Positions 48,640-54,015 of a stretch of 64,000 bases of DNA are shown piece after piece. Every line of letters begins with the position of its first letter. The stretch's first letter is position 1. The notes under the pieces are model-generated. The model ran no database searches. It was given only the letters and a program-made list of their open reading frames with translations, and had not been told where the DNA came from. A program made the translations under genes and the position numbers. This stretch comes from Jiella mangrovi (GTDB lineage Bacteria; Pseudomonadota; Alphaproteobacteria; Rhizobiales; Rhizobiaceae): assembly GCF_017815135.1 (NCBI RefSeq), contig NZ_JAGJCF010000016.1, positions 62,001-126,000 on the forward strand. The letters run 5' to 3'.

Positions 48640-49797
48640 TCACTCCGCGATGATGTGCGGCACGAAACGCGAGAGGTTGCGGGTGATCGGCGAGCGATCC
48701 TCGCGCATTCCGAGACCGCAGGCCCGGTCCCCGACGATCCACGATCCGAGGACGGCATAGGCCCCATCAGCCTCGAAAAGATTCGTCAGGGCCTGCACGA
48801 CATAGCCCTCCTCGCCGTAGGATCCCTCGGTGATCTCGACGCTCTGGCCCTGCTTCAGGACCTCGACATTTTCACCCTCGCGCGAAAACAGCGGCTTGCG
48901 GACGGCATCGCTCAGTGATTTCGCCTGCGGCTCGTCGTCGAAGAAGGCCGGCAGGAGGTTGGGGTGGCCGGCATGGCGATCCCAAAGCATCGGCAGGATG
49001 CCCTTGTTCGACAAAAGCGTCTTCCAGGGCGGTTCGACGATCGTCGCGCCGGCCGTCGACAGATACTTGGCGAAGGGCTCGCGCAGCATGTCTTCCCATG
49101 GATAGAGCTTGAACAGGAGGTCGATCACCCGGTCGTCGGTGTCGGTGAAACGGCCCTGATGGTCGACGCCGATGTCGCGGATGTCGAGAAGTGTGGTCCG
49201 ATGGCCGGCCTGGACAGCGCAGTCCATCAGATAGGCGGCCGTGCCCCGGTCCTCGTCGCTCTCTGTCCAGGCGGCGAAATGGAAGATCGGGTCCCTCGAG
49301 AAAGCCCCGAAGGCTTCGACGAGGCTTTCCTGGATCGAATTGTACTGATCGGCATCTTCCGGCAGCGCGCCGCGCGCGACGTTGTCGGTCAGCCAGTTGT
49401 ACTGGAAATAGGCCGCCTCGAAGATGGAGGTCGGCGTATCGGCGTTGTATTCCAGAAGCTTCGCCGGCCCGGTGCCGTCATAGGCGAGATCGAAACGGCC
49501 GTAGAGATGCCTGTCGCCGCGCTGCCAGGATGCCGCGACGAGGTCGCGCATCTCCTGGGGCACCTTGAGGCGCTCCATCGCCGCCTCGTCGCGCACCACG
49601 TCGGCCACGAGATCCATGCACATGTCGTGGAGTTCCTGGGACGGCGCCTCGATCGCCTCCTCCACCTCGGCGAGCGAAAAGGCATAGGCCGCGTCGTCAA
49701 CCCAGTAGGGCTCGCCATACATTTCGTGGAAGCCGAAGCCGACCGCTTCCGCCGCCTCGCGCCAGTTTTCCCGCTCGGGGATCGCGATCCGTTTCAT
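48640..49797 (-). CDS. yjfC: Glutathionylspermidine synthase-like ATP-grasp protein (YjfC/YgiC)
   Basis: 385-residue ATP-grasp ligase related to the synthetase half of E. coli Gsp, which links glutathione to spermidine. It begins MKRIAIPERENWREAAEAVGFGFHEMYGEPYWVDDAAYAFS, followed by GRFDLAYDGTGPAKLLEYNADTPTSIFEAAYFQYNW (metal and substrate site), LYPWEDMLREPFAKYL, LSNKGILPMLWDRHAGHPNLLPAFF and a C-terminal GSWIVGDRACGLGMREDRSPITRNLSRFVPHII. These are all features of the YgiC/YjfC subgroup, whose substrates are unproven. It is the last gene of the operon from the channel gene; the DUF1190 gene precedes it by 75 bp, as in E. coli yjfM-yjfC and ygiB-ygiC. Confidence 0.93.
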   Translation of the reverse strand: MKRIAIPERENWREAAEAVGFGFHEMYGEPYWVDDAAYAFSLAEVEEAIEAPSQELHDMCMDLVADVVRDEAAMERLKVPQEMRDLVAASWQRGDRHLYGRFDLAYDGTGPAKLLEYNADTPTSIFEAAYFQYNWLTDNVARGALPEDADQYNSIQESLVEAFGAFSRDPIFHFAAWTESDEDRGTAAYLMDCAVQAGHRTTLLDIRDIGVDHQGRFTDTDDRVIDLLFKLYPWEDMLREPFAKYLSTAGATIVEPPWKTLLSNKGILPMLWDRHAGHPNLLPAFFDDEPQAKSLSDAVRKPLFSREGENVEVLKQGQSVEITEGSYGEEGYVVQALTNLFEADGAYAVLGSWIVGDRACGLGMREDRSPITRNLSRFVPHIIAE

Positions 49798-49872
49798 CGA
49801 AACGCGCCCTCCGCGACGAACTTGCGGCCCGGCGCAAGGCCGCCCTCGGCCGCAGCCGGTCCGGCAGACCGC

Positions 49873-50457
49873 TCACCCACCGAAGAAGCCGCCGCGCGAA
49901 GAGGAACGTCCGCCGAAGCCATAGCGCGAGGCCGTGGTCGTGCCGACATTCACGGGCCGGCTGCTGCGCTGGCCGTTGCTGATCGTCGAGGTGACCGTGT
50001 TGCCGTTGCGGGTGCGATAGATCGGCGTCGAGGAATAGCCGGACGAATAGCGATAGTCGCGATAGGCGGCGTAGTTCGACAGGTTGGCGATGGCCGAGGA
50101 GATCAGATAGCCGGTCATGAACGGCACGAAGAAGCCCGAGCCGGAGCCGCTGGTCTGGCCGACCGAGTTCTGGTCACTGCCGTCGCCGGCCCGAAAGCAT
50201 CTGCCGGCACCGACCTCCGCTTCGCATTCCTGCAGGTTGGCATAGTGAGGCGCGTCGGACAGATGTTTCTGCAGCGCCTGCTGGTATTCCGCCTGGCAGA
50301 TCTCCGCATCGACGCCAGCGTCGGCGCATTGCTGCGGCGTCGAGAACGCCATTTCCTTCGGCGTATCGTCGCCGCAACCCGACAGAACCATGCCGGTGGC
50401 GGCGATGGTTCCGAGCGCGAGAATTGGCGGTGTGCGCCGGGTGAAGCGTCTTGTCAT
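49873..50457 (-). CDS. yjfM: DUF1190 lipoprotein (YjfM/YgiB family)
   Basis: 194-residue predicted lipoprotein: basic N-terminus (MTRRFTRRTPP), hydrophobic run and lipobox LSGC with acylated Cys28. The DUF1190 core carries paired cysteines (QQCADAGVDAEICQAEYQQAL, NLQECEAEVGAGRC) that may form disulfides, then a hydrophobic FVPFMTGYLISSAIANL and a Gly/Ser/Arg-rich tail ending SSSRGGFFGG. GGGAGGTGAGG precedes ATG 50457. It follows the DUF350 gene by 11 bp. Function is unknown; it always travels with YjfC/YgiC-like ATP-grasp genes. Confidence 0.92.
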   Translation of the reverse strand: MTRRFTRRTPPILALGTIAATGMVLSGCGDDTPKEMAFSTPQQCADAGVDAEICQAEYQQALQKHLSDAPHYANLQECEAEVGAGRCFRAGDGSDQNSVGQTSGSGSGFFVPFMTGYLISSAIANLSNYAAYRDYRYSSGYSSTPIYRTRNGNTVTSTISNGQRSSRPVNVGTTTASRYGFGGRSSSRGGFFGG

Positions 50458-50468
50458 CCTCACCTCCC

Positions 50469-50870
50469 TCAGTAGGTCATGCAGGCGGCGTTGAGAATGC
50501 CGACGGCAAGCGCGATGCCGCCGCCCCAAAGACCTGCGGCGATTTCACCGTCGGTGATGCGCTGGTGGAGCCCGGTCATCGTGCGCGAGGCGATGAAGAA
50601 GGCGAGAATCTGCGCCAGAAGACCGATCACCGCCCAGATGATGAAGTCGACGATGCTGAGCGAATTCGCCGCCGCAGAGGCCAGCGGCAGTGAGAAGCCG
50701 AGGATCGCGCCGAGGAACGCCACGACGGCTGCCGTGTTGCCGGCCCGGATCAGGGTGATCTCCTTCTGCGGCGTCAGCGTCGTGTAGATCCATGCGAACA
50801 GGGCGTAGAGCACCAGGCCAAGGATGAAATAGGCGAGAAAGGCCGGCAGGCCGGCGGCATATCCAAACAT
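50469..50870 (-). CDS. yjfL: DUF350 membrane protein (YjfL family)
   Basis: 133-residue inner-membrane protein with four predicted helices: about 8-28 (FLAYFILGLVLYALFAWIYTTL), 43-65 (AGNTAAVVAFLGAILGFSLPLASAA), 75-97 (IVDFIIWAVIGLLAQILAFFIASR) and 110-130 (AAGLWGGGIALAVGILNAACM). The Thr-Pro-x-x-E-x-x-L-I-x-x-G-N motif after helix 1 is the DUF350 signature. It sits between the DUF2491 and DUF1190 genes as in E. coli. Biochemical role unknown. Confidence 0.92.
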   Translation of the reverse strand: MFGYAAGLPAFLAYFILGLVLYALFAWIYTTLTPQKEITLIRAGNTAAVVAFLGAILGFSLPLASAAANSLSIVDFIIWAVIGLLAQILAFFIASRTMTGLHQRITDGEIAAGLWGGGIALAVGILNAACMTY

Positions 50871-50974
50871 TCAAGTCCCTCTCGATGCGCGGAGCTTTTC
50901 GCCCCATGGTGTGTCGTCGCCCCCGTTCCGCGAGGCTTTCCGCCACTTGCAACTCGGCAGCGGATCGGTCGTCC

Positions 50975-51637
50975 TCACACGCGCCTGACATCGGCCGGCG
51001 ATAGCCCATAGCCGAGTAGGAACGCCACCGCGCCGCCCTCGCGGCTGGCCCGTTCGGCGATATCGCGCTCGATATTGAGGAGCAGCATCTCCTGCGTCGC
51101 GCCGAGCGGCCGCGCATAGAGCATGCAGGTCTGATGGATCTGGCGTACCCGCTCCCCGTCATCGACGTCCTCGACGAATTCCACGAGTTGGGCGCGTCCC
51201 GAGCCCTCGCCCCAGTAGCGCTGGAAGATCAGGCCGTCGGCATCGTAGGTCGGCTGGCCGATCAGGCCCGAGGGCCCCGCCCAGCGGTCCCATTCGGCGC
51301 GATCGGCCGGCACGACGCTGTCCCAGGCGGAATAAAGGCTGATGTCGGTTATGGCGTCGCCCGGCTTGCCGCTGGCCGAGAGCGTCTGCAGGAGACGGTC
51401 GTCTTCGTCGTAATAGCGCGACAGGACCGTCTCGCCGTCGAGCCGCGCCTCGCCATAGGCGACGACGATGAAATTGCCGCCTTCGGGCAGCTCCATGCCG
51501 GGTGAGGTTCCGGCCGCGTCGGCCTGCAACGCCAGCGTGTCGATCTCGATCGCGCCGCCGAGCGCGACGCCGAGCGGCCCGCGCTCCACCGGAAGATCGG
51601 CCGACTTGTCCTTGCCACCGAACAGCGAGAAGATCAT
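50975..51637 (-). CDS. yjfK: DUF2491 family protein (YjfK)
   Basis: 220-residue soluble protein beginning MIFSLFGGKDKSADLPVERGPLGVALGGAIEIDTLALQ, then a beta-rich body with NFIVVAYGEARLDGETVLSRYYDEDDRLLQTLS and LIFQRYWGEGSGRAQLVEFVEDVDDGERVRQIHQTCMLYAR, features of DUF2491. No signal peptide, so cytosolic. Its start overlaps the stop of the channel gene by four bases (ATGA), showing translational coupling, and the DUF350 gene follows after 104 bp. Function unknown; the family is known mainly from this gene neighbourhood. Confidence 0.92.
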   Translation of the reverse strand: MIFSLFGGKDKSADLPVERGPLGVALGGAIEIDTLALQADAAGTSPGMELPEGGNFIVVAYGEARLDGETVLSRYYDEDDRLLQTLSASGKPGDAITDISLYSAWDSVVPADRAEWDRWAGPSGLIGQPTYDADGLIFQRYWGEGSGRAQLVEFVEDVDDGERVRQIHQTCMLYARPLGATQEMLLLNIERDIAERASREGGAVAFLLGYGLSPADVRRV

Positions 51638-52692
51638 GCGCTTGTCCTCGCGAACGCTTCCCAGGCGATGGCGCCGGGATCCAGCCTCTGGTCGGCGATG
51701 TAGTAGAGAACGTCGCCGGAACGAATCTCCATCGTGTCCTTGCAGTTGAGATCGACATTTCCGTGACGGGCCATGCCGACGACGGTCACGGCGTGGCGTC
51801 GGCGCATGGCGTGAAGCGCCGTCTCGTAGTTGAAGCTCGTCGTGCCGTCCGGAACCGTCACCGAATAGGCGGTGTCCTGCGTTCCGGCGGACAGAAGCAG
51901 ATTGGCGATGACCGAGGATCCGGGGTCTTTCGCCGCACGGACCATCAGCTCAGACGAGAGCGACGTCACCGCTTCGATCTGCGGATTCTGCCGATGCAGG
52001 ATCGTTGCCGTCGATTCGAAGTCGAAATAGGCGACGACATGAGCCTTTTCACAGGTCGCCGATGCGACGAGAGCGGCCGCCAGAGTCTCGTCGTCGGTTT
52101 CGCCGCGCACGATGATCGAGCGCGCATTCGCCCCGCCGGCCCGCTCCAGCCCGACCGGATCGGCCAGCCGCTCGACGCGGACATAGTCGATCTTGTCGGG
52201 CATGGGATTTTCTTCGAGATCCTTGGAGATCAGCACTGTCAGCGCTTCGCCGGCAGCGCGTTCGGCGACGATCAGCCCGAGCAGCCGCTGCGTCGCCGCC
52301 TCGTGCCAGCCCATGACGATGTCGTGCCCCGACCGGTCGCCAAAATTGCCCAGCCCCTTCATCCGGCCTCTCCAGCTGTTGCTCACCGCCGACAGGAGCT
52401 TGCCCAGGACGGCGGTGAAAATCGCGATCGCGCCAGGCAGAACGAAGAAGGCGGCAATCAGCCGCCCCGCCCCGGTCTGAGGCGACAGGTCACCGTAACC
52501 CACCGTCGTCGCGGTGACGACGTAGTAGTAGACGAAATCGACCGGCCTTGCGACGAAGTCGCTCTCGCCGACAACCATCAGGAGTAGCCAACTTGTCAGG
52601 AAATGGCCGATTGCGAGCCCGGCGATCGCTCCCCATGTGAGTTCGGCAAGGGCGACGTAGAAGCGACGCAGATAGGACGAGAACAGTGGCAC
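51634..52692 (-). CDS. Potassium channel with RCK/TrkA-N domain, in yjf operon
   Basis: 352-residue two-helix K+ channel. Membrane helices flank a pore loop with the selectivity filter TVGYGD (ATTVGYGDLSPQTGAG, about residues 62-77). The cytosolic part from about residue 110 is a TrkA-N/RCK Rossmann-like domain (HDIVMGWHEAATQRLLGLIVAER) and a C-terminal TrkA-C-like segment (TVVGMARHGNVDLN... SGDVLYYIADQ). The Gly-rich nucleotide loop is altered (MGWHEA rather than G-x-G-x-x-G), so ligand binding may differ. It is first in the minus-strand operon and divergent from yjfI. This gene is not part of the E. coli yjf set. Confidence 0.93.
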   Translation of the reverse strand: MPLFSSYLRRFYVALAELTWGAIAGLAIGHFLTSWLLLMVVGESDFVARPVDFVYYYVVTATTVGYGDLSPQTGAGRLIAAFFVLPGAIAIFTAVLGKLLSAVSNSWRGRMKGLGNFGDRSGHDIVMGWHEAATQRLLGLIVAERAAGEALTVLISKDLEENPMPDKIDYVRVERLADPVGLERAGGANARSIIVRGETDDETLAAALVASATCEKAHVVAYFDFESTATILHRQNPQIEAVTSLSSELMVRAAKDPGSSVIANLLLSAGTQDTAYSVTVPDGTTSFNYETALHAMRRRHAVTVVGMARHGNVDLNCKDTMEIRSGDVLYYIADQRLDPGAIAWEAFARTSA

Positions 52693-52840
52693 GAGTGATC
52701 CGGTTCAGTCGATTTGTGGCCTCACGCGGCCGAATTTCCCTGGCGTCGATCCTGGCCGCCAACGGTGCGAATCCGTTTGGACAGGCCTTTCGTCGTGATG
52801 TAGAACCCCAACCCGAACCTTGGCAACCGAGGGATACCCC

Positions 52841-53272
52841 GTGCAAAAGTGGAATCTAGCCAGCCTGACGGAGCTTTTCGCGTCAGACCCGGAGGCGCTC
52901 GGCGATGTCGACGTCACCGTCGTCGAGACGGGCGACGTGATCCGCGTGACACTGAAGGAGAAAGGCGATCTGGACGTCCTCGTCGCCGCCGGCGGCGACC
53001 AGGTGCTCGCCAGCGTGATCCTGGCGCCGGCCGATACCATCCCGCATCGCGAGGCGTTCGAACGGATGATCCTGTCGACGCACAAGCTCGTGCCGCTATC
53101 GACCTTCGGCATCGTCACAATCGACGAAACCGAGTATTATGAGCTGTTCGGCTCGCTGTCGGCCATGTCGAGCGCAGCCGAGATGGTCGAGGAAGTCGCG
53201 GTGCTCGCCACCAACGCAGTCGACGCGGCCAACATGATCGAGGACTGGAAGAAGCGGGAGAACGGGCAATGA
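52841..53272 (+). CDS. yjfI: DUF2170 family protein (YjfI)
   Basis: 143-residue soluble acidic protein: MQKWNLASLTELFASDPEALGDVDVTVVETGDVIRVTLKEKGDLDVLVAAGGDQVLASVILAPADTIPHREAFERMILSTHK, the DUF2170 pattern. GTG 52841 is chosen because GAGGG lies eight bases upstream; an in-frame TTG at 52820 is weaker. Its stop overlaps the start of the PspA-family gene (ATGA). Function unknown; paired with a PspA-family protein as in E. coli yjfI-yjfJ. Confidence 0.92.
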   Translation: MQKWNLASLTELFASDPEALGDVDVTVVETGDVIRVTLKEKGDLDVLVAAGGDQVLASVILAPADTIPHREAFERMILSTHKLVPLSTFGIVTIDETEYYELFGSLSAMSSAAEMVEEVAVLATNAVDAANMIEDWKKRENGQ

Positions 53273-54015
53273 GCGTCTGGAACAAGCTGTTCACTGCCGT
53301 TCGCGGCGGCGTCAACGAGGCTGCGGAAGGCGTCGCCGACACGCAGGCGCTGCGCATTCTCGACCAGGAAATCCGCGACGCGGAAAACGCGCTGCGCCGC
53401 GCCCGCTCGGATCTTGCCGGCATCATGGCCTCCAACAAGTCGCTGCAGCGCCGGGTCGCCGAAGCGCGGGACAAGGAGCGCAAGGACACCGAAAGCACCC
53501 GCGCCGCGCTGCAGGCCGGCCGCGAGGACCTCGCCCGGGGCCTTGCCGAGCGCATCTCCAAGACGCGGACCGAGGCGAGCCGCGACGAAGCCGAGCTCGA
53601 ACGCCTCAACCAGCGCCAGCAGCAGATGATCAAGGCGGTGCAGGACACCGAGCAGCGCATTCAGCAGATGCGCCGCGAGGTCGAGAACGTGAAGGCCAAC
53701 GAGTCGCTGATCAAGGCGCAGTCGGCGATCGCGACCACCCAGTCCGGCGTCAACTCCAAGCTCGGCAATGCGATGGATTCGCTCGAGCGCATCCGCAAGA
53801 AGCAGGAGATGACCCAGGGCCGTCTCGAAGCCGGCGAAGAGCTCGCGGCGCTGGAATCGGGCTCGGATCTCGACCGACAGCTGCTAGCTGCCGGGATCGG
53901 CGGCCAATCGCAATCGGCCGACGACGTGCTCGCCCAGATCATGGGCACCCCGTCCTCGCCGTCGATTTCCGGGCCGAAGGATCACCCTGCCCTCGACCGG
54001 CCGAGAAACAGCTGA
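53269..54015 (+). CDS. yjfJ: PspA/IM30 family protein (YjfJ)
   Basis: 248-residue member of the PspA/Vipp1/ESCRT-III superfamily, which forms membrane-binding oligomers that protect the cytoplasmic membrane. It begins MSVWNKLFTAVRGGVNEAAEGVADTQALRILDQEIRDAENALRRARSDLAGIMASNKSLQRRV, then a long coiled coil through about residue 200 (many E/R/K/A heptads) and a Ser-rich tail. The amphipathic helix-0 of PspA is partly retained at the N-terminus (VWNKLFTAVRGGV). No PspF, PspB or PspC genes are nearby. It ends in a strong terminator and is coupled to yjfI. Confidence 0.94.
   Translation: MSVWNKLFTAVRGGVNEAAEGVADTQALRILDQEIRDAENALRRARSDLAGIMASNKSLQRRVAEARDKERKDTESTRAALQAGREDLARGLAERISKTRTEASRDEAELERLNQRQQQMIKAVQDTEQRIQQMRREVENVKANESLIKAQSAIATTQSGVNSKLGNAMDSLERIRKKQEMTQGRLEAGEELAALESGSDLDRQLLAAGIGGQSQSADDVLAQIMGTPSSPSISGPKDHPALDRPRNS

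Follow-up and report, generated by a model that had tools for sequence, protein, structure and literature searches.

Gene content and layout

The window is a 64,000-nucleotide stretch of Jiella mangrovi DNA, and its positions 48,640 to 54,015 hold seven genes in two arms that diverge from a 148-bp gap:

48640-49797, minus strand: ATP-grasp acid-amine ligase, YgiC/YjfC family (GSP_synth; Pfam PF03738)
49873-50457, minus strand: DUF1190 lipoprotein, YjfM/YgiB family (Pfam PF06693, 2.8e-27)
50469-50870, minus strand: DUF350 membrane protein, YjfL family (Pfam PF03994, 1e-36)
50975-51637, minus strand: DUF2491 protein, YjfK family, predicted mostly beta (Pfam PF10679, 6.5e-49)
51634-52692, minus strand: potassium channel with an MthK-like RCK domain (Ion_trans_2, 3.5e-13, and MthK match)
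52693-52840, no strand: divergent junction between the arms (from the coordinates of the flanking genes)
52776-52784, plus strand: conserved block TTTGGACAG (7-row junction alignment)
52796-52806, plus strand: second conserved block TGATGTAGAAC (7-row junction alignment)
52841-53272, plus strand: DUF2170 protein, YjfI/BacA family (Pfam PF09938, 3e-38)
53269-54015, plus strand: PspA/IM30 family protein, YjfJ (Pfam PF04012, 1.4e-43)

An earlier, sequence-only reading of this DNA had called the same seven genes, and a Pfam search of the window bears out both its coordinates and its names, each gene matching the expected family. The ATGA overlaps that it described are present, between YjfI and YjfJ at 53269-53272 and between the channel and DUF2491 (yjfK) at 51634-51637, as are the two divergent arms; the order yjfI-J-K-L-M-C that it gave for E. 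coli K-12, without a channel, is also correct. The arrangement is far beyond chance, being repeated in dozens of loci. Demonstrated for this locus are which genes it holds, that the set is conserved and what each part is homologous to; it is almost certainly the seven-gene form of a YjfIJKLMC-type PspA-polyamine module, here laid out in two divergent arms.

By sequence the ATP-grasp gene is a homologue of YgiC and YjfC, a family reported as peptide-spermidine ligases. The match to GSP_synth (1.4e-148) covers the whole profile (1-371 of 371), and the protein is homologous over its full length to E. coli YgiC (48% identity) and YjfC (47%), both of which the E. coli annotation calls peptide--spermidine ligases. 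Because of this resemblance, a polyamine-type product is plausible, out of the glutathione/polyamine-type conjugate that had been suggested. The ligase gives a single match in the J. mangrovi genome. Also encoded there are a carboxy(nor)spermidine decarboxylase and a single protein bearing a domain of the spermine/spermidine synthase type; a search of the same genome for AdoMet decarboxylase found none. YjfJ is 34% identical to its E. coli namesake and the DUF350 protein 45% identical to YjfL, and the N-terminus of the DUF1190 protein contains LSGC, which we take to be a lipobox-like sequence. The biochemistry of five of these families had been called unknown, which overlooks the crystal structure of a YjfI relative (8q8o; PMC10948618) and, for the ATP-grasp family, the solved relatives 7uk6 and 7uk8 together with a reported activity.

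Conservation of the set and the place of the channel

Among 33 loci anchored on DUF2491, 24 contain all six genes other than the channel. The channel is present in 19 of these 24 complete loci, each time adjoining DUF2491, and missing from five; in 13 of the 19 the seven genes all lie on the same strand. Reading frames overlap between channel and DUF2491 in 33 of 64 loci and between YjfI and YjfJ in 28 of 68, with start codons, as for the junctions and palindrome counts below, set by script or picked from script output. Where the set is divergent the ligase gene is seen in either arm, which ties the arms together. All these counts are drawn from related genomes and are not independent events, and the two genome draws overlap, three matches, the J. 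mangrovi genome included, occurring in both. The nine loci outside the 24 are L015-L020, six loci from alphaproteobacteria whose DUF2491 frame is long, and L070-L072. One rhizobial copy (L092) is on a plasmid according to its record. A phage origin was considered and rejected: viral contigs scanned once with the DUF2491 protein, a search that can reach close relatives only, gave no match.

The two arms and the channel thus behave as one conserved set, as the sequence-only reading had proposed, and the check that it had named, conservation of the channel with the set, came out in its favor (19 of 24). Its description of the channel as an addition is better reversed. It is E. coli, whose locus lacks the channel, that is exceptional, and the locus closest to it in the tree carries one; of five branches without a channel, four are paired with a branch that has it, as read from topology alone in a tree of 55 of the 68 loci from which near-identical ones had been removed. 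Conservation in 19 of 24 loci, the frame overlaps in 33 of 64 and this pairing lead us to reject the channel as a late addition or passenger. The channel is a normal member of the set and was probably lost in E. coli.

The channel itself has an MthK-type design. Beyond its Ion_trans_2 match (3.5e-13; TrkA_N reaches just 0.0063, under its cut-off), residues 54-332 match MthK (3rbz, 7.2e-14), and it shares with MthK the pore, the RCK domain, the TVGYGD filter and the GW of the nucleotide loop. The loop sequence MGWHEA had been thought to depart from standard RCK domains. Its aligned counterpart in MthK is CGWSES, so the loop is ordinary; among 38 aligned channel relatives the G is conserved in all and the W in 36. 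The difference from MthK lies at D184, E210 and E212, which we take to be its calcium ligands and which align with R196, Y222 and D224 of the window channel. Across the 38 relatives the D184 column holds D in nine, the E210 column never holds E, and the E212 column holds D or E in 25. Judged from this alignment, the MthK calcium ligands are poorly conserved in the window channel and these relatives.

YjfI, promoter palindromes and the divergent junction

The window YjfI begins at the DUF2170 domain, probably with a GTG start. In 26 relative loci YjfI bears an N-terminal extension, possibly a DNA-binding part, that weakly resembles MazE-like antitoxins and a plasmid repressor. Against PF11455 (MazE-like), three of seven full proteins matched at E<=10, one passing the cut-off, and 12 of 25 extensions matched at E<=1; against the plasmid repressor UrfF the value was 8.8e-4, under that model's cut-off. 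The extension alignment comprised 25 of the 26 loci (L120 excluded). A predicted structure of the extension, of modest confidence (pLDDT 76.8), is helix-extended-helix; compared with solved folds it gave one meaningless match and no other, a search of PDB sequences with the extension profile returned nothing credible, and the UrfF literature yielded nothing useful. The window YjfI has no MazE-like extension, and a search of the J. mangrovi genome with the extension model found no homologue. That model was positive in 6/6 extended genomes, which are no independent control because their sequences formed rows of it, and in 0/10 others, J. mangrovi among them.

The palindrome YACATGTR lies just upstream in 18 of the 26 extended loci versus none of 43 filed as unextended, a number that is truly 42 because L098, the same contig as L014, was misfiled when the script took an inner start. 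The background is 78 in 10,400 random 120-nt stretches from those loci. When YjfI proteins are clustered at 70% identity the palindrome occurs in 6/11 extended versus 0/13 other clusters (these may include the misfiled L098), and at 60% identity in 3/6 versus 0/10. It is absent from eight extended loci, among them L066, L067 and four of L013, L060, L061, L063 and L064; some of the eight bear other palindromes.

The extension and the palindromes are new, and both belong to relatives, neither to the window. As the extension looks DNA-binding and the palindromes often stand at the promoter, YjfI may repress the set in those relatives, linked to PspA and acting at a promoter that the arms share. 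This reading is not directly transferable to the window, whose YjfI lacks the extension and whose genome has no homologue of it. Palindromes at the divergent junction, in some relatives only, are a hint that the arms are co-regulated.

No sigma-70 consensus was found in the window junction. Across seven aligned Aurantimonas, Jiella and Fulvimarina junctions TTTGGACAG is identical in six (L078 deviates) and may be a promoter element, and all seven agree at 10 of the 11 columns of TGATGTAGAAC, conservation that points to a function.

Mechanism, alternatives and known systems

We propose that when the membrane is stressed YjfJ forms polymers on its inner face, and that YjfI, as a dimeric chaperone-like protein, would bind YjfJ and report its state. 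Coupled in translation to DUF2491, the MthK-like channel would release potassium once a cytosolic ligand had bound to its RCK ring. The ligase, of YjfC/YgiC type, would join spermidine to a peptide and so alter free polyamine at the membrane, with DUF350 and the DUF1190 lipoprotein as presumed envelope components. In relatives with an extended YjfI, the protein would repress the set, with TTACATGTAA as its candidate DNA target, until titrated by YjfJ; with the DNA-binding-like domain missing in the window lineage, another regulator would have to act on the junction. The mechanism as a whole we hold tentatively, at somewhat less than even chances, and the seven-gene module together with this mechanism, our best explanation overall, at about even. 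A bolder version, which we think improbable, makes YjfI the missing switch for this family of PspA proteins. As a repressor, it would occupy ACATGT promoter palindromes with its N-terminal half and be titrated by polymerised YjfJ through its chaperone-like half, so that membrane damage would free both arms and start potassium efflux and polyamine conjugation together. The DNA-binding half would then have been lost in E. coli and the window lineage, and in E. coli the channel too.

The alternative that survives best, although we doubt it, is a polyamine-homeostasis circuit in which a polyamine or peptide conjugate gates or blocks the channel and PspA is the membrane-side actuator. The reported action of the ligase family on spermidine fits it, as do the decarboxylase and synthase-type genes of the genome and the distant channel relatives (27-32% identical) that adjoin aminopropyltransferase genes in other phyla, in six of the best 80 of at least 358 channel loci (neighbors Pfam-checked in L129 and L119). 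However, the two acidic pore-mouth residues of MthK correspond to G97 and S101 in the window, and in the 38 relatives to G/A/T and mostly Q/A/S/T; moreover, 28 of the best 80 of at least 358 channel loci lack any partner sought, 24 of these channels being at most 32% identical and four 39-45%. Less likely again is that the set serves chiefly to supply pore-like proteins, which would stiffen the membrane or vent it at high temperature, as passages of PMC12492005 propose for E. coli yjfIJKL as a heat-tolerance operon. There yjfIJKL is strongly up in heat-evolved E. coli, with a promoter deletion predicted as the cause, but the periplasmic YjfI of its low-confidence models contradicts the CesT/ExsC-like crystal structure of BacA (PMC10948618), its own checks leave YjfK unconfirmed as a membrane protein, and the window DUF2491 starts MIFSLFGGKDKS, by eye with no obvious signal peptide.

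It is very unlikely that DUF2491 is a small triphosphate-tunnel-type enzyme whose substrate or product gates the coupled channel. The AlphaFold2 model is confident and mostly beta (mean pLDDT 92.2), it has invariant R, E and Q residues, and several of the weak fold matches that keep recurring are structures that we assign to the triphosphate-tunnel type. Yet no match was confident among the families in the Foldseek and VIA-align match lists, the best values (Z 3.4, Foldseek E 0.016) are within noise, and outer-membrane barrels and avidins score about equally. Least credible is a passenger channel beside a yjf set whose arms are independent operons: divergent transcription, the five complete loci without a channel and the four channels 39-45% identical with no set member found (L095, L096, L101 and L103, among the best 80 of at least 358) would suit it, but it is largely refuted by the kept channel-DUF2491 adjacency, the frame overlaps, the one-directional loci and the ligase gene in either arm.

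We know of no agreed function for the E. coli yjf genes. If, as in our preferred seven-gene reading, the channel is original and was lost by E. coli, work on E. coli only covers an incomplete system. The YjfI extension and the palindromes offer a testable guess at damage sensing and self-control of PspA modules, and, since related channels accompany polyamine enzymes in several phyla, a link between potassium and polyamines can be tested directly.

Compared with known systems, E. coli K-12 yjfIJKLMC has six of the seven genes in the same order, but no channel and on one strand. In the Pseudomonas aeruginosa bac operon, too, a DUF2170 protein precedes one with a PspA domain (BacA/BacB; PMC10948618); NCBIfam BacA spans 206 positions, of which the window YjfI matches just 64-201. 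In that paper's passages on the operon, the other Bac proteins accumulate in a bacA mutant, negative control by BacA is the authors' inference from proteomics, and no spermidine synthase lies in or near the operon. The closest likeness is to the third group of PspA-CesT/Tir operons, with ATP-grasp ligase and potassium channel, in Ravi et al. 2024 (PMC11237479), so that the locus is no undescribed system: section 19 of that paper already has the identical gene set, channel included. The DUF2170 (CesT/Tir)-PspA dyad, the GSP_synth-type ATP-grasp ligase, the potassium channel with a cytosolic ligand-sensing domain (RCK by MthK homology) and, by Pfam, DUF350, the DUF1190 lipoprotein and DUF2491 are common to both. 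The words 'rhomboid' and 'RCK' are absent from its main text, and section 19 and related passages mention neither a divergent split nor a DNA-binding DUF2170 extension; the window set differs from the third group in being split into two divergent arms.

The gene set and its channel

The seven adjacent genes at window positions 48640-54015 are placed and identified as the sequence-only reading had them, as gene coordinates and Pfam families confirm: a GSP_synth-type ATP-grasp ligase, DUF1190 (YjfM), DUF350 (YjfL), DUF2491 (YjfK) and a potassium channel on the minus strand, DUF2170 (YjfI) and PspA (YjfJ) on the plus strand. The ATGA overlaps that it described, between the frames of YjfI and YjfJ and of the channel and DUF2491, are both present. 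The same layout occurs in six relatives labelled Fulvimarina, Aurantimonas or Jiella, whose channels are 58-78% identical to that of the window; the window most likely derives from close to this group. Ravi et al. 2024 (PMC11237479) already describe the set, channel included, so the window locus belongs to a published kind; no further account of the set with a channel was found in the literature searched, whose coverage leaves out most subscription journals. The module is thus real, conserved and already described. The genome assembly (4.93 Mb, 41 contigs) also carries a second, more distant PspA-family gene (57 bits) at G000:C8:72659-73195.

A search for DUF2491 found it in 9 of 289 genomes from the class and in 28 of 398 from the phylum, the window's own genome being counted in both. 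Among 33 DUF2491-anchored loci, all outside that genome, the six families other than the channel are all present in 24, and the channel in 19 of these 24. It adjoins DUF2491 in each case. Thirteen of these loci have all seven genes on one strand, and in the other six the DUF2170-PspA pair is flipped, giving two divergent arms; the ligase gene can lie in either arm. In four loci (L067, L111, L114 and L120) PspA and the channel are separated by a rhomboid-family gene (4/4 tested match PF01694), and the PspA-channel gap is 672-852 bases in 8 of 24 same-strand loci. One rhizobial copy of the module (L092) is on a plasmid, by the title of its sequence record.

In a tree of ligase, PspA and DUF350, the E. 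coli branch pairs, by topology alone, with the channel-bearing locus L057; of the four other branches without a channel, three likewise have a channel-bearing partner. The YjfK proteins of E. coli and L057 share 163 of 219 residues. Based on this pairing and likeness, the channel was most likely lost in E. coli; the earlier description of the channel as an addition is not borne out.

A second sample, anchored on the channel (the best 80 of 358 relatives), is uninformative on how often the channel is absent. In 44 of its loci (one, L098, on the same contig as L014) four or more of the six core genes are present, and a further 28 of the 80 showed no sought partner. One module copy, L131, ends at its contig's edge. 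Counter to a strict link, the channels of L095, L096, L101 and L103 are 39-45% identical to the window's, and none of the set was found nearby. A possible polyamine link outside this set comes from six loci among the same best 80 of 358, where an aminopropyltransferase gene adjoins a channel with 27-32% identity to that of the window.

Aminopropyltransferase genes beside distant channels
L121, L125, L127, L129, L139: same strand, aminopropyltransferase beside channel
L119: opposite strand, aminopropyltransferase beside channel

The identity of the enzyme was checked with Pfam in L129 and L119, and PspA is part of the same run of genes in L129 and L139. In an Endozoicomonas locus (L108:8492-10942), Band-7, NfeD and the channel follow in a row.

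The N-terminal extension of YjfI and the junction

The most useful new lead is that half of YjfI in relatives may bind DNA. In 26 alpha- and gammaproteobacterial loci the DUF2170 frame is extended at its N-terminus by 63-90 residues that share a conserved core, and an alignment of 25 of these extensions contains five invariant columns. At E<=1 the Pfam MazE-like antitoxin model picks up 12 of 25 extensions, and at E<=10 three of seven complete proteins, L013 alone above the cut-off; L104 is a weak match to the NCBIfam model for the plasmid repression protein UrfF (8.8e-4, below cut-off). The extension is modelled as helix-extended-helix (pLDDT 76.8), with no match among solved folds.

The palindrome YACATGTR occurs within 120 bases upstream in 18 of the 26 extended loci, in none of the 43 loci classed as unextended, and in 78 of 10,400 randomly drawn stretches; after clustering at 70% the counts are 6 of 11 extended and 0 of 13 others. 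Ten extended loci have upstream TTACATGTAA-like copies 14 bases apart (two mismatches allowed). Eight lack YACATGTR, including L013, L060, L063, L064, L066 and L067, and some have other palindromes. We infer that extended YjfI may be a DNA-binding repressor.

All four extended proteins tested match the NCBIfam BacA model along most of its 206 positions, start included, though below cut-off, so P. aeruginosa BacA probably bears the extension too. The BacA chain in the solved structure has 146 residues. PMC10948618 places the operon under negative control by BacA; the terms 'DNA-binding' and 'ribbon' are absent from the main text of that paper.

The window's YjfI begins at the DUF2170 domain. 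An extension model that recovers 6/6 extended genomes tested, themselves the source of model rows, had no hit in the window's genome or in two others from its family. At the window junction two blocks are largely conserved among relatives, TTTGGACAG (6/7 rows) and TGATGTAGAAC; rhizobial divergent junctions (L062, L079, L080 and others) have instead an inverted-repeat-like CGAAATTTATTT(C/A)G in 13 of 15 aligned.

Ligase and DUF2491

The window ligase aligns over its full length with YgiC (48% identity) and YjfC (47%), and it has relatives with solved structures (7uk8, 7uk6). Peptide-spermidine ligation is the activity reported for both E. coli proteins (Pederick et al. 2023, as cited in an excerpt of PMC12568646), consistent with their NCBI product names, and a table entry in PMC12506659 lists YgiC as without glutathionylspermidine synthase activity. 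The ligase and DUF1190 proteins (window 48640-50457) resemble YgiC and YgiB slightly more closely than they do YjfC and YjfM; E. coli ygiB-ygiC lies downstream of tolC. Judging from gene content, spermidine is likely supplied in this organism, because its genome encodes a carboxy(nor)spermidine decarboxylase (above model cut-off) and one spermine/spermidine synthase-type domain. AdoMet decarboxylase had no match in the genome.

In heat-evolved E. coli strains yjfIJKL is strongly raised, with a promoter deletion the predicted cause, and membrane pores are suggested for the products (excerpt of PMC12492005). The window DUF2491 is modelled as mostly beta (pLDDT 92.2), with no confident match among solved folds. 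Weak matches (best Z 3.4) repeatedly include several structures that we take to be of triphosphate-tunnel type, which may be noise. In six alphaproteobacterial loci (L015-L020) DUF2491 is the end of a 478-849 aa frame, with DUF350 then following in 5/6; the long N-terminal part matched no Pfam family at E<=0.1 in four frames tested.

The channel sensor domain

MthK is the best solved relative of the window channel (7.2e-14, residues 54-332). The nucleotide loop MGWHEA, earlier taken as odd, aligns with CGWSES of MthK, with its G conserved in all 38 relatives and its W in 36, so that reading is not borne out. The difference from MthK lies at the calcium site (D184, E210 and E212 in MthK), where the window channel has R, Y and D. 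Of the 38 relatives, nine carry D in the first of these columns, none carries E in the second, and 25 carry D or E in the third. With residues so unlike those of MthK, calcium bound as in MthK is probably not the ligand of this channel.
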